Shown: positions 54,072 through 60,315 of the stretch, one piece after another
Numbering within the stretch: the stretch's first letter is position 1
How the letters are laid out: every line of letters begins with the position of its first letter
Assembly (NCBI RefSeq): GCF_020217425.1
Contig: NZ_CP084090.1
Location: 558,001 to 622,000, forward strand
Source: Halomicrobium urmianum
Lineage (GTDB): Archaea > Halobacteriota > Halobacteria > Halobacteriales > Haloarculaceae
Direction of reading: 5' to 3'
DNA length: 64,000 nucleotides
Translations under genes and position numbers: made by a program
Notes under the pieces: model-generated
Database searches by the model: none
What the model saw: the letters and a program-made list of their open reading frames with translations, nothing else
What the model was told of the DNA's origin: nothing

Positions 54072-54091
54072 ATCGAACCCGAGTGGCGGAC

Positions 54092-54577
54092 ATGGACCTC
54101 CGGTTTCGCCACCTGGCCGCCGTCACGACGGGGCTGACAACGGTGCTGATCCTGCTGGGCGTGTACACCGGCGCGATCGGCGCGGGCCTCACCTGCGCCG
54201 GCCGGTGGCCGCTCTGTGACGGCTGGTTAGGCCTGTTCCCGGCCGACTGGGCCAGCTTCGTCGAGTGGTTCCACCGACTCGTCGCGATGGTGACCGGCTT
54301 CGGCATCCTGGGGACGACCTACGCCGCCTGGCGGGGCGACCACGGGCGGCGCGTCCGGCGGGCGACCGCCGTCGCGACCGTCGCGCTTCCCCTCCAGATC
54401 CTGCTGGGCGCCAACACCATCGCCAACTTCGGCGCCCTCGCGCAGGTCCTCCACCACGCCGCCGCGCTGGTCATCCTGATCGCGCTCGTCGCCGCGACGG
54501 CGTGGGCCTACGACGAGCCCCGGGACGGCGGCGACGTCGCCGAGTCCGGCACCCCGGCCGGGACGAAAGCCGACTAG
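54092..54577 (+). CDS. COX15/CtaA-like heme A synthase protein
   Basis: A 161-residue membrane protein of the archaeal half-size CtaA/COX15 type. It starts MDLRFRHLAAVTTGLTTVLI and shows four helices. His residues occur in EWFHRLVAMVTGF and VLHHAAALVI, the heme-ligating positions of CtaA. The CAGRWPLCDG loop has two Cys as in many CtaA proteins that form a disulfide. It would oxidise heme O to heme A for terminal oxidases, perhaps as a homodimer. No cox gene adjoins it. Confidence 0.85.
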   Translation: MDLRFRHLAAVTTGLTTVLILLGVYTGAIGAGLTCAGRWPLCDGWLGLFPADWASFVEWFHRLVAMVTGFGILGTTYAAWRGDHGRRVRRATAVATVALPLQILLGANTIANFGALAQVLHHAAALVILIALVAATAWAYDEPRDGGDVAESGTPAGTKAD

Positions 54578-54869: not shown

Positions 54870-57800
54870 ATGTCACCGAACGGCGGCGGGCAGCGGGAGC
54901 GTAGAGTATCGACGAGCGTCAAGCGTTTCGCGGTCGTCTTCGTCGCGGCGGCGATGGTGCTCTCCGCGGGCGCACCGTTCGCCGCCGCCCAGACGCAGAC
55001 TGGCGGGTCGGACGCGCAGATGGAGGGCGGCGCCGACGAGGAGTGGACGTCGGCCCCGGAACTGCTCGAGCTGAACGGCAGCGGCGGGGACGCCCTGAAC
55101 AGCGGCGACGGGGATGCGTCGAACGGCGCTAACGCATCTAACGACACGCGGACGGCCGTCGAATCGGCGGTCGACGAGACCGTCGTCCGACTCCAGAGGC
55201 AGGGCGTCAGCGTGAACCAGAGCCAGCGGGACGCAGCGGTCGACGGGGCCGTCGCGGCGGCCGAACAGCACCAGAACGCGACCGTCGAGCAGCTCCAGAA
55301 CGCGAGCGCCGGCGCGGTTGCGGGAACGCTGTTCCAGAGCCAGAACGTCAGCGCCGAGCAGGTCCAGTACGCGACCGCTGGCGCGGCCCACGGCGCGCTC
55401 TCCCAGCGTCAGTCCGTCGCGGCCACGCAGCTCCAGCACGCCGCCTACGGTGCGGCGCACGGTGCCGTCGCCCAGCGGCAGAACGCGACGGTCAGGCAGG
55501 TCCAGGTCGTCGCGCAGGGCGCCGCCGCGGGAGCGGCCCACGAGGCCGGCAAGAACGAATCGACCCAGCCCGGCGCGGTGCGTGAGGCCGCGCAGGGCGG
55601 CGCGTTCGGCGCGCTCGTCGGACAGAACGCCACGATCGAGCAGCGGCAGAACGTCACGATCGAACAGCGCCAGACTGCGGCGGTCGGCGCGGCCGAGGGC
55701 GCGCTGTCCCAGCACCAGAACGCCTCGGTCAAGCAGATTCAGATCGCCGCCATCGGCGCTGCGCAGGGCGCGCTGACGATCGAACAGCGTCAGGAAGTGA
55801 CGGTCGAACAGACGCAGGCCGCCGCCAGGGGTGCCTCCAGCGGCGCGCTGCGGCAGGTTCAGCGGGTGACGGTCACGCAGATCCAGCAGGCGGCGACTGG
55901 CGCCGCGAAGGGGGCTATCTCGCAGTCCCAGACGGCAAGCGTCACCCAGATACAGGCCGCCGCGACTGGCGGGGCATCCGGCGTCGTCCGGCAGGTCCAG
56001 TCCGTCACCGTCGTCCAGATTCAGGAGGCGGCGGCCGGCGCCGCGTCGGGCGCCGCGCGGTCCGCGGCCCAGAACCAGGTCGTGAACGTCCAGCAGATCC
56101 AGGCCGCCGCCGCGGGCGCCGGCCAGGGGACCATCGTCCAGGTCCAGCAGATCAACGTCGTCCAGATCCAGATCATCGCCGCGAGCGCCGCCGACGGCGC
56201 GCTCTCCCAGCACCAGACGGCCAGCGTTACCCAGATCCAGTCGGCCGCCCAGGGCGCGTCTCAGGGCGCGGTCTCGGTGACCCAGCGACAGGAGATCACG
56301 ATCGAGCAGCTCCAGATCGTCACCCAGCGCGCCGCGTCGGACACCGCGGCCACCGCGGCGCAGATCAACATCGACAACGACGTGACGATCATCAACTACG
56401 CGCGCGGCGCCGCCGAGGACCCCGAGGACGACGCCGACGAGCCCGACGAGCTGCGGAGCCTGTTCGCCTCGGCCGAGGGCGACGCGGTGTTCCTAGCGAA
56501 CCCGAACGACGTCGCGGTGACAGTCACGCTCACCGAGCAGGCGGGCAGCGTGGAGACGATCACTCTCGCCGCTGGTGAGTCCGTCACCCGCGAGCTCGAC
56601 GCGGGCACGTACACGATGACCGCCGAGACCGGCGAGGGCGAGGACGTTGAGGTCGCCGGCCGCGACGAGCTCACCGTCTCCGTCGGCGGCGTCTTCCAGA
56701 GCCTGGAGACGACCGTCGACGACCGGATCCTCGCGGTCGACAACCCGAACGACGAGCGCGTCGTCGTCGACGTCCAGCGGGACGGCGAGGCGGTGGAGAC
56801 CATCGTCGTGCCCGCCGACTACGAGGTGCTCAGGGTCCTCGAACCCGGGAACTACACGCTGACCGCCGAGACGGTCGACGGCGAGTCCGTCCCGGTCGAC
56901 GGCGGCGAGGCGGCGCAGATCACGGTCGAGGACGGTGAGGCCGACGACGGCGAACCGATCGACCTCGACGCGGCGGTCGAGAACGGCACCCTCACCGTCG
57001 AGAATCCGTCGGAGACCGCGGTTGAAGCGACCGTGACCGCCGATGACGGCGACGAGCAGACCTTCGATGTGCCCGCCGGCGAGGCGGCGACCGAGTCGCT
57101 CGAGCCCGGCAACTACACTCTGACCGCGGCGGCCGAGGACAACCGCACGGTGCAGATCGGCGGCCAGTCCGAGGTCACGTTCGAGGTCGAGGGTGGCGTG
57201 GTGCCGATGCCCAGAGTGAACGCCGCACTGACCGTCGAGAACCAGACGGGCAACGGCTCCGCCCTGAACGTGTCGAGCGCGACGGCGACCGAGCCGTTCG
57301 TGATCGAGGCCGAGGCCAACGGCACGACCGGCACGAGCGCGGAGTACGAGGCTAACGAGTCGGCGGAGAACGTCTCCATCCCGCTCGAGCCGCCGCTGGC
57401 GAACGACTCCGACGCGACCGTGAGCGTCGTCGACGCCGAGACCGACGAGGAGTTCGTCAACGAGACGATCGAGTACGACGTGACTGCGCCGGAACCGGTC
57501 CCGTCCGACGCGACGCTGAACGTCACTGACCAGATGGGCAACGGCTCCGTCCTGAACGTCACGAGCGCGAACGCCAGCGTCGACTACTACGTCGCGGCCG
57601 AGTACGACGGCGAGACGGTCCGCACCGACAATCTGTCCGCGGGCGAGTCCGTCGAGAACCTGACCCTGCCGCTCGACCCGCCCGTCGAGAACGACACGGC
57701 GGTCAATGTCTCGGTCCGAGCGGCCGCTGACGACGGCGAACTCGCGAACGAGACCGTCGAGTACGAGGTCGACGACGGGGCGGAAGACGGAGCGCAGCCC

Positions 57801-60281
57801 AACGCTTCGGTCACGTTCGAGGACCAGAACGCGACCGACGGTGACGTCCTGGTCGCGTCCGCCACCCTGCCGGAGGGCGGATTCGTCGCGGTCCACGCGA
57901 ACTCGACGAACGGCACCGACGACGTGATCGGCGCGTCGGAGTACCTCCAAGCGGGCGAGCAACTGAACGTGACCGTACCGCTTGACGCGCCGCTGGACGA
58001 GACGACCGCGCTGAGCGCGACGGTTCACCGGGATACCGACGGCGATCAGGCCCTCAACTACTCGGCGTCCGGCGGCGAGGTCGACGTGCCCTACGAGAAC
58101 GCGACCGGCGCGACCGCCGCCGACGAGGCGACCGTGAGCGTCGCGCCGGTCCGCGAACCGACCGCACTGAACGTCGAAAACCAGGACGGCAACGGGTCCG
58201 TCCTGAACGTCACGAGCGCGAACGCCGGCGTCGACTACGTGGTCGAGGCCGAGGCCGACGGGTCGACGGCGGCCAGCGACGAGTTCGTGGCCGGCGAGGG
58301 TGCCGAGAATCTCACGCTCGACCTCGAACCGCCGCTGGAGAACGACACCACGGTGAACGTGAGCGTAGTCGACGCGGCGAACGACACCGAGCTCGCGAAC
58401 GAATCCGTCGAGTACGACGTTACCAAGGACGGAGTCGCGCCCGGGCCCGCCGGGAACCTGACGGTCGAGGACCAGGCGGGCAACGGCTCCGAGCTGGTCG
58501 TCGCGAACGCGAGCGCGTCGGTCGACTACGTCGTCGAGGCCGAGGCCGACGGTGCGACTGCGACCAGCGACCAGTTCGACGCCGACGAGTCCGTACAGAA
58601 TCTCACGCTCGACCTCGAACCGCCGCTGGAGAACGACTCTACGGTGAACGTGAGCGTAGTCGACGCGGCGAACGACACCGAACTCGCGAACGAATCCGTC
58701 GAGTACGACGTGACGGCGGCGGCGCCGACCGCACCGACGGCCAACCTGACCGTCGAGGACCAGCGTGGTCACGGGTCGGTGCTGAACGTCACGAGCGCGA
58801 ACGCCAGCGTCGACTACTACGTCGCGGCGGAGTACGACGGCGAGTCGGTCCGGAGCGAGAACCTGTCCGCGGGCGAGGCGGTCGAGAACCTGACTCTGCC
58901 GCTCGACCCGCCGATCGAGAACGACACGACCGTCGACGTCGCCGTCCGCGCCGCCGTTGACGACACCGAACTTGCGAACGAGTCGGTCGAGTACCAGGTC
59001 ACCGAGGAAGCCGAACCCACCGCGAACGTGACCGTCGAGAACCAGACGGCCAACTACACGCACGTCGACCTGGCGTCGGCGGACCTCTCCGAGGGCGGGT
59101 TCGTCGCGCTGCACGCGAACTCGACGAACGGGACCGACGACGTCCTCGGGGTCTCGGCGTACCTCGAACCCGGCGAGTACGAGGCCCTCTCGATCGAACT
59201 CGACGAGCCGATCTACCGGAACGGAACGCTGAACGCCACCGTCTACCGCGACGCCGACGACGACGGGTCGTTCAGCCCGGCGGCCGATGCCGAGACCGGC
59301 GACGTCCCCTACGTGAACGCGACCAGTGCGCCCGTCAGCGACGAGGCGTCCGTGACCGTCCCGAACGCGACGGTCGCGTTCGCGGACCAGACCTCGAACG
59401 GCTCCGCCGCGGTGGTCCGCTCCGCGAACCTCTCCGAGGGCGGTTTCCTGACGCTGTGGAACGCGCCGCCCGGGGCAGCCGACGCGACCGAATCGGTCAT
59501 CGGGACATCGGCGTACCTCCAGCCGGGCGAGTACGAGAACGTCACCGTCCCGCTGTCGGAGAATCTGACGGAGAACGCCACCCTCTACGCGGTGGCACAC
59601 CGCGACACTGACGACGACGAGCAGGCGGACTTCGTCGCGACCGCCGGCGAGGTCGATCAGCCGTACCTGAACTGGAGCGGCGAGGTCGTCAACGACAGCG
59701 CTACCGTGAGCGTCGAGCAGCGGCCCGAGGCCCCGACGCTGAGCGTCGAATCGATCGCCGTCGTCGACAACGAGACGGCGCTGGTCACCTTCGCGACGTC
59801 CAACCCCAACGCGGGGGCGCTGAACCCGGCCGAGAGCGAGTTCACCGCCGGCACCACCGCCGACCAGCCGCCCGACGCCATCGTCCCCGGTGACGGAGCG
59901 ATCACCGTCGAGTGGACGCCCGAGTCGACCGACGAGCAGCTGGTCTGGACCGCGAACCTCTCGAACCTCGGGCTGGACAACGCGACGGCGGAGACCCAGC
60001 CCGCCGACGAGATCGAGGGGCTGCTTGAACCGCCTGAGGAGCCGGAGACGGACGCTGAGGGCGACGCAGCGGAAGGTGACGGAGCGGAGGACGACGCGGC
60101 GGAAGGTGACGAAGCGGAGGACGACGCGGCGGAAGGTGACGAAGCGGAGGACGACGCGGCGGAGGGAGAAGAGGGCGAACCGATCGGACCGGACGAGGAG
60201 ACGCCGACGAACGGATCAACCGAGGCCCCGGCCGGTGACTCTGAGACGAACGAGAGTGGAGCAGCGAACGGAGCGGCCTAG
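54870..60281 (+). CDS. Giant secreted repeat protein: Gln/Gly-Ala solenoid, PEGA-like modules, DUF7282-like modules, acidic tail
   Basis: A 1,803-residue exported protein. Residues 1-40 are a signal peptide (VKRFAVVFVAAAMVLSAGAP, cleavage near AAA-Q). Residues about 107-500 hold about 16 tandem repeats of mostly 23 residues, of the type xQxATVTQIQ then xAAxGAAxGALSQ. Residues about 530-780 are three roughly 70-residue PEGA-like modules (VFLANPNDVAV ... LDAGTYTMTAET). Residues about 782-1624 are eight DUF7282-like modules: five short and three long (SEGGFVALHANSTN type). Then come one extra Ig-like stretch and an acidic tail with DDAAEGDEAE tandem repeats. It is rich in N-glycosylation sequons and has no C-terminal anchor, so it is released or held by contacts. 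Probably a cell-surface fibre or adhesin. Confidence 0.85.
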   Translation: MSPNGGGQRERRVSTSVKRFAVVFVAAAMVLSAGAPFAAAQTQTGGSDAQMEGGADEEWTSAPELLELNGSGGDALNSGDGDASNGANASNDTRTAVESAVDETVVRLQRQGVSVNQSQRDAAVDGAVAAAEQHQNATVEQLQNASAGAVAGTLFQSQNVSAEQVQYATAGAAHGALSQRQSVAATQLQHAAYGAAHGAVAQRQNATVRQVQVVAQGAAAGAAHEAGKNESTQPGAVREAAQGGAFGALVGQNATIEQRQNVTIEQRQTAAVGAAEGALSQHQNASVKQIQIAAIGAAQGALTIEQRQEVTVEQTQAAARGASSGALRQVQRVTVTQIQQAATGAAKGAISQSQTASVTQIQAAATGGASGVVRQVQSVTVVQIQEAAAGAASGAARSAAQNQVVNVQQIQAAAAGAGQGTIVQVQQINVVQIQIIAASAADGALSQHQTASVTQIQSAAQGASQGAVSVTQRQEITIEQLQIVTQRAASDTAATAAQINIDNDVTIINYARGAAEDPEDDADEPDELRSLFASAEGDAVFLANPNDVAVTVTLTEQAGSVETITLAAGESVTRELDAGTYTMTAETGEGEDVEVAGRDELTVSVGGVFQSLETTVDDRILAVDNPNDERVVVDVQRDGEAVETIVVPADYEVLRVLEPGNYTLTAETVDGESVPVDGGEAAQITVEDGEADDGEPIDLDAAVENGTLTVENPSETAVEATVTADDGDEQTFDVPAGEAATESLEPGNYTLTAAAEDNRTVQIGGQSEVTFEVEGGVVPMPRVNAALTVENQTGNGSALNVSSATATEPFVIEAEANGTTGTSAEYEANESAENVSIPLEPPLANDSDATVSVVDAETDEEFVNETIEYDVTAPEPVPSDATLNVTDQMGNGSVLNVTSANASVDYYVAAEYDGETVRTDNLSAGESVENLTLPLDPPVENDTAVNVSVRAAADDGELANETVEYEVDDGAEDGAQPNASVTFEDQNATDGDVLVASATLPEGGFVAVHANSTNGTDDVIGASEYLQAGEQLNVTVPLDAPLDETTALSATVHRDTDGDQALNYSASGGEVDVPYENATGATAADEATVSVAPVREPTALNVENQDGNGSVLNVTSANAGVDYVVEAEADGSTAASDEFVAGEGAENLTLDLEPPLENDTTVNVSVVDAANDTELANESVEYDVTKDGVAPGPAGNLTVEDQAGNGSELVVANASASVDYVVEAEADGATATSDQFDADESVQNLTLDLEPPLENDSTVNVSVVDAANDTELANESVEYDVTAAAPTAPTANLTVEDQRGHGSVLNVTSANASVDYYVAAEYDGESVRSENLSAGEAVENLTLPLDPPIENDTTVDVAVRAAVDDTELANESVEYQVTEEAEPTANVTVENQTANYTHVDLASADLSEGGFVALHANSTNGTDDVLGVSAYLEPGEYEALSIELDEPIYRNGTLNATVYRDADDDGSFSPAADAETGDVPYVNATSAPVSDEASVTVPNATVAFADQTSNGSAAVVRSANLSEGGFLTLWNAPPGAADATESVIGTSAYLQPGEYENVTVPLSENLTENATLYAVAHRDTDDDEQADFVATAGEVDQPYLNWSGEVVNDSATVSVEQRPEAPTLSVESIAVVDNETALVTFATSNPNAGALNPAESEFTAGTTADQPPDAIVPGDGAITVEWTPESTDEQLVWTANLSNLGLDNATAETQPADEIEGLLEPPEEPETDAEGDAAEGDGAEDDAAEGDEAEDDAAEGDEAEDDAAEGEEGEPIGPDEETPTNGSTEAPAGDSETNESGAANGAA
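58308..58420 (+). repeat. Near-identical direct DNA repeat, copy A (in the DUF7282 region)
   Basis: About 113 bases recur with few changes at 58599-58711, 291 bases (97 codons) later. Both encode NLTLDLEPPLENDxTVNVSV and VVDAANDTELANESVEYDV. The nucleotide identity is far higher than between the other modules, suggesting recent duplication or conversion. Confidence 0.7.
58599..58711 (+). repeat. Near-identical direct DNA repeat, copy B
   Basis: Second copy of the 58308-58420 unit; synonymous changes are few (CACCACG against CTCTACG and GAGCTC against GAACTC). Confidence 0.7.
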
Positions 60282-60315
60282 ATCGAGTCCCGGCGATGCA
60301 TGCCGGGGCTCGATC
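60281..60315. terminator. Hairpin directly at the stop codon of the giant repeat gene
   Basis: GATCGAGTCCCGGC-gatgcat-GCCGGGGCTCGATC is a 14-bp stem with one mismatch. It begins on the last base of the TAG and lies before the convergent rfcL gene, so it fits a shared terminator. Confidence 0.55.

Follow-up and report, generated by a model that had tools for sequence, protein, structure and literature searches.

Which structure and which role can be assigned to an exported haloarchaeal protein that begins with a long array of 23-residue repeats rich in Gln, Gly and Ala is the question raised by a gene in the 64,000-nucleotide stretch of Halomicrobium urmianum DNA analyzed here (the window). 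Its open reading frame runs from an ATG at 54870, with GGAGGT close upstream, to a stop codon ending at 60281 without interruption, and as an N-terminal signal sequence is recognizable by eye, the gene encodes a secreted protein of 1,803 residues, as had been proposed in a preliminary description. In a search of the organism's own genome, the array of this gene was the sole strong match. A linker separates the signal sequence from the array. The features of the locus are collected in Table 1. We think that this is a glycosylated haloarchaeal surface or matrix protein, the array of which may form a strand-containing solenoid with Gln ladders and act as rod, adhesin head or assembly module; this reading has, in our judgement, about an even chance of being correct.

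Table 1. Features of the repeat protein gene and its 3' end, in positions of the window
Feature	Positions	Strand	Basis or remark
Whole gene, secreted repeat protein of 1,803 aa	54870..60281	+	array single-copy in the Halomicrobium urmianum genome
N-terminal signal sequence, ~residues 1-40 (KRF-AVVFVAAAMVLSAGAPFAAA/Q)	54870..54989	+	Sec-type by eye
Repeat array, residues 96-510, N-terminal cap and ~15-16 units of 23 residues	55155..56399	+	periodicity, spacing, alignment
24-bp (8-residue) duplication of the Q-stretch module alone, QNATIEQRQNVTIEQRQ	55623..55674	+	DNA repeat search
Three Ig-like modules, residues ~530-785, with NPND and GxYTLTAE motifs	56457..57224	+	limits approximate, by eye
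Eight DUF7282-type modules, residues ~785-1637	57222..59780	+	motif; Pfam
C-terminal module, residues ~1645-1735, like the C-terminal region of relatives L026-L032	59802..60074	+	by eye
Acidic tail, 40% D+E, 30-bp tandem repeats, without membrane anchor	60075..60278	+	composition, DNA repeats
Terminator-like hairpin of 14 pairs (one G-U), directly after the stop	60281..60315	+	-29.2 kcal/mol, z -3.2

The array does not repeat by chance, since within residues 101-510 the identity between positions 23 residues apart reaches 0.351 and exceeds the maximum of 0.206 found after shuffling (lags 2-69, 2,000 shuffles). About 15 units match the strict pattern QxQ-5-QxQ-12, and together with the strong period this agrees with the approximately 16 tandem repeats that had been counted between residues 107 and 500. 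The consensus of a unit reads Q1 x Q3 x [VA]5 x [VI]7 x Q9 [IV]10 Q11 x12 A13 A14 x15 G16 A17 A18 x19 G20 A21 [LVI]22 x23, so that each unit consists of a rigid alternating stretch of 11 residues, QxQx[VA]x[VI]xQxQ, and a following GxxxG-like stretch of small residues; one block at about residues 218-250 has kept the GA stretch without the Q stretch. The claim that most units are exactly 23 residues long needs to be refined, as this is the commonest length, but the period is composed of two modules of 8 and 15 residues, and variants of 25 and 26 residues exist. The 8-residue module is nearly invariant and can be duplicated alone, as in the window array, and such insertions recur in the relatives, repeatedly in Natrialbaceae, while the 15-residue module can become 16-18 residues long. 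Among 46 distinct proteins, QxQ pairs are spaced by 8 residues in 694 cases, by 15 in 379 and by 16-18 in 142, with spacings of 7 or 9 absent from the 30 commonest ones. The fixed positions of Gln emphasized at the outset are thus substantiated both by this 8-residue distance and by the near invariance of the Gln positions across genera. In the relative L071, there is additionally an insert rich in Lys, and QSQSVDVSQSQ repeats occur that lack the GA half.

In 559 distinct units, the variability at positions 1-11 alternates with a period of two (p=0.0006, permuted positions) and that at positions 12-23 peaks weakly at 95 degrees, a helix-like value (p=0.065), part of this pattern arising by construction because only units with Q at 9 and 11, G or S at 16, G or A at 20 and Q at position 1 or 3 were included, with positions 5, 7, 13, 14 and 17 free of selection. 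Structure prediction with AlphaFold2 was of low confidence both for the whole array (430 residues, 8 rows; pLDDT 29.8, pTM 0.24) and for four units (26 rows, register-shifted; pLDDT 43.4, pTM 0.27), and gave neither a confident coiled coil nor confident disorder for the array region. Both models draw strands and no helix past the N-terminal cap, and in the second one all five Q stretches are modelled as strands, which at such confidence is a hint only. The strand-like character that had been ascribed to the first half of the unit is in line with the period-2 variability and with these strands, whereas for the GA half the periodicity makes a helix-like character plausible, with the low-confidence models giving coil or strand there. 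A Foldseek search with the low-confidence model returned nothing at E<=0.001 and carries no weight, because both models are of low confidence. For the same reason, the solenoid fold, the formation of fibres and an amyloid character are treated here as proposals. A strand followed by a short Gly-zipper-like helix is the reading that we prefer for the unit, from the periodicity and a weak Gly-zipper match and not from the models.

When the array was compared with Pfam, NCBIfam, PHROG and the sequences of the PDB, nothing reached a cut-off and no characterized repeat family was matched. Judged by these comparisons, it is an undescribed repeat family without a name in databases, in agreement with the initial impression. 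The same repeat, which the preliminary description had suggested to look for in other haloarchaea, is indeed widespread: the window array as query matched 14 of 146 genomes (same family), and an alignment of eight sequences matched 110 of 391 Halobacteria genomes, belonging to 35 of 86 genera. In a phylum-wide sample, all 20 matches fell within the family or order of the window's own organism. The carriers include Halovivax, Natronorubrum, Natrialba, Natronolimnohabitans and Natronoglomus, and one array gene lies on a Halobaculum plasmid, where it is annotated as 'hypothetical protein' (one annotated record). No array relatives were found in the viral contigs or in the phages searched, and Bacteria were covered by a stringent peptide scan only.

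The paralogous units within the array share a mean DNA identity of only 61%, which shows that the array is not a recent expansion, and DNA repeats of 24 bp and 69 bp are still visible locally. Units are 59-76% identical to their counterparts in other species and 48% identical to their neighbors in the same protein, so that the array must be old and its units position-specific. Three pairs of related arrays gave dN/dS values of 0.029/0.178 (L009-L010, ~0.16), 0.110/0.645 (L011-L012, ~0.17) and 0.061/0.444 (L027-L029, ~0.14); with dN well below dS in all three, the array is under purifying selection, and in more distant pairs it is more conserved than the remainder of the protein. These data bear on the view that the array is a flexible low-complexity spacer of Q, A and G without a defined fold, kept only for its length and its glycosylation. 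The low confidence of both AlphaFold2 runs and the biased composition would suit such a spacer, but a spacer would account neither for Gln and Gly positions that are nearly invariant across genera nor for the position-specific identity and the low dN/dS, and an exact distance of 8 residues would not be kept in it, so that we consider it rather unlikely. A lone Cys, unusual for an exported haloarchaeal protein, occurs in one unit (AARGACKG or similar) of the arrays of L009, L011, L012, L017 and L018; the window protein has Ser instead.

The curli repeat has a period of 22-23 residues, and curli (CsgA, PF07012) share with the array this period, the conserved Gln, the export and the imperfect repeats. 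A curlin repeat was nevertheless rejected, as the array has no PF07012 match at E<=1, the only match in the genome lies elsewhere and below cut-off (E 1.58), and QX10Q, the spacing typical of curli, occurs less often than expected (3 against 12.3, z -3.2), the enriched spacings being QX7Q and QX22Q; unlike curli, the array also has a G/A-rich second half and relatives that are anchored multidomain proteins. Functional amyloid in a wider sense would mean that the array forms cross-beta fibrils through Gln ladders within and between molecules, in the manner of curli and FapC, and constitutes a haloarchaeal biofilm amyloid. The low charge of the array fits this, bacterial functional amyloids typically possess Q-rich imperfect repeats in which Gln is conserved (PMC12822426), and biofilms of Haloferax volcanii stain with amyloid dyes, from which a putative amyloid has been reported, although its source protein is not established (PMC4180959). 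FapC likewise has imperfect repeats and conserved Gln/Asn, but it is described as a Greek-key arch, and it is set apart by this description and by the lack of a sequence match to the array (PMC12822426). A further point in favor is that an archaeal amyloid-like sheath is known from a methanogen; its protein SH from Methanospirillum hungatei is also an extracellular beta-rich structural protein, but with about 40 kDa and six different beta-arches it differs from the array, and the available part of the source describes no 23-residue Q/GA repeat (PMC10593813). Apart from the missing curlin match and spacing, the two almost invariant Gly positions in their Ala context speak against amyloid, as do the membrane anchor and long stalk of several relatives, which make free polymerization unneeded, and the Tat-type signals of three relatives, which suggest folding before export. 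An amyloid reading of the array is possible, but we assign it a low probability.

Other known repeats resemble the array in single aspects. Leucine-rich and other alpha/beta solenoids have units of 20-30 residues with one strand and one helix-like segment, but the array has neither a Leu scaffold nor a Pfam LRR match, and burial would be achieved via Gln, Val, Ala and Gly. The Gly-zipper_YMGG family (PF13441) has a similar GxxxG-like spacing (E 0.0045 over 45 residues), but the match reaches 17.1 bits against a cut-off of 28.9, and this family has no Gln ladder. Among the sequences of the PDB, the full array had no match, and four units matched only designed armadillo repeats, with a weak whole-sequence match to EQIQAVIDAGALPALVQ (E 6.5e-4). 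The armadillo repeat was rejected, as its period is 42 residues and each stretch shown has an independent E >=10; we read the match as compositional.

A further explanation is a fibre shaft-like parallel homotrimer in which 8-residue beta segments and 15-residue helical segments alternate; a period of 15 residues is known from coiled coils. The duplication of the 8-residue module alone, with runs such as RVEVEQEQRVEIEQYQ, would be permitted by a triple beta-helix built on octads. A simple solenoid has difficulty in accommodating an 8-residue insertion into only part of a coil. Against the trimer, conserved small residues occupy three of the four faces of the GA segment, which is more burial than a trimeric coiled coil requires, and we regard the trimeric fibre as improbable.

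The solenoid reading is also informed by the sequons. The mature protein contains 83 N-x-S/T sequons, about five-fold more than the 15.8 expected after shuffling, and the array contains 9 instead of 2.0. In the 559 units, 78 of 83 unit sequons start at positions 2 (4 cases), 4 (33) or 6 (41), all on the even side of the alternating stretch, which is the variable one, and the others start at 12 (4) and 15 (1). This fits an exported glycoprotein with the even face outside and the odd face (Q, Q, V, V, Q, Q) inside, and N-glycosylation of the protein is predicted. The units are furthermore hardly acidic, with a mean D+E content of 6.7% compared to 26% in the C-terminal remainder and 17-21% in three neighboring proteins of the window. 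Haloarchaeal proteins are normally strongly acidic, and a neutral domain is unusual for them. From this neutrality we infer that stability in brine would require the array to be packed, shielded by glycans or assembled. Like charges at position 8 of adjacent units are found in 41 cases with 77 expected, as close stacking predicts, but this carries no evidential weight, because the sequences are related and other positions disagree.

Downstream of the array, the three Ig-like modules had been described as PEGA-like. This assignment is not supported, as PEGA gave no Pfam match at E<=1 in the 1,803-residue protein or in three relatives or fragments; the nearest Pfam family is PLipase_C_C (PF05506), with 12.8 bits in the 1,803-residue protein (cut-off 24.4) and 25.6 bits in L026, the sole relative over the cut-off. 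The eight DUF7282-like modules could be recovered by motif, with starts near residues 788, 885, 983, 1102, 1199, 1295, 1388 and 1504, while Pfam alone passes 3-6 of them, depending on the threshold; the DUF7282 (PF23951) match of the protein is strong (5.8e-90, 297 bits against a cut-off of 27). No mention of DUF7282 was found in the literature searched. The subsequent C-terminal module has no Pfam match. Tandem duplications at 58167-58840 in the DUF7282 modules (291 bp, 81%) and at 60057-60163 in the acidic tail (30 bp, 96%) indicate that recent duplication is reshaping the C-terminal part. The same genome encodes another protein with many DUF7282-like modules (G000:C1:834125-836320), apparently without the Q/GA array.

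In all proteins examined in full, the array is located near the N terminus, and the N-termini of the relatives are comparable to that of the 1,803-residue protein. Among 27 proteins scanned with Pfam, DUF7282 occurs in 13, TSP3 in 5, CARDB in 5, a beta-helix in 4, and several other domains once or twice; other C-terminal variants are Thr/Pro- or acid-rich tails and, in some, a membrane anchor. Most relatives end, as the 1,803-residue protein does, in an acidic or Pro/Thr-rich tail, whereas L068, L069, L077 and L097 have a C-terminal hydrophobic stretch followed by basic residues, likely a membrane anchor. In L069, L070, L075, L076 and L077, long calcium-binding repeats of the TSP3 type are joined to the repeat head, unlike the architecture in the window, and L069 and L077 combine this fusion with the C-terminal anchor. 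Shorter versions are encoded at L063:1215-2729, L071:598-1512 and L073:715-3162, where the signals are Tat-type by motif, which would mean that these proteins fold before export. The N-terminal position of the array, the varied C-termini, the anchors and the Tat-type signals argue for a surface head on exchangeable stalks. The surface location that had been suggested for the protein is also in line with its signal sequence (by eye) and sequon enrichment, the 1,803-residue protein itself having no C-terminal anchor.

Taken in this way, the protein would be exported, N-glycosylated and placed at the cell surface or in the extracellular matrix, with the array as its conserved head and one coil per unit. 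The Q-x-Q-x-V-x-V-x-Q-x-Q stretch would be extended, its odd face (Q, Q, V/A, V/I, Q, Q) would be buried and would stack from coil to coil to give Gln ladders, the even face would carry sugars and charged residues, and the G/A-rich stretch, with small residues at every fourth position, would probably complete the coil as a short helix with tight packing. The stalk of Ig-like and other modules would hold the rod off the cell, with the C-terminal anchor contributing in some relatives. The rod could be an adhesive or structural element, alone or via end-to-end or side-by-side association, which its unusually low acidity would favor in strong brine. By elimination and context, a structural or adhesive role at the surface or in the matrix is most likely. 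A bolder version, in which an undescribed archaeal Gln-ladder solenoid with a strand and a Gly-zipper segment per coil forms fibres or matrix by self-assembly in saturated brine and is the source of part of the amyloid-like staining of haloarchaeal biofilms, appears to us a distant prospect.

The relevance of the family lies in the fact that a large, conserved and usually single-copy surface protein is present in more than a quarter of the sampled haloarchaeal species. Few haloarchaeal components of attachment and matrix formation are known, and the protein is a concrete candidate for these processes. As the repeat defeats AlphaFold2 at the alignment depth at hand, a solved structure would probably be informative, and the neutral, Gln-rich extracellular domain raises the question of protein solubility or assembly in saturated salt.

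The genes next to that of the array protein encode a heme A synthase-like protein, malic enzyme and the RFC large subunit, and point to no role for it. The Natrialbaceae loci have a different neighborhood, with genes for BioY-type transporters and for DUF7545 and DUF5799 proteins. The hairpin behind the stop codon is situated between the array gene and the convergent RFC large-subunit gene and is possibly a shared terminator of both. Upstream, on the same strand, a small membrane protein is encoded at 54083-54577 that by eye resembles a half of heme A synthase.
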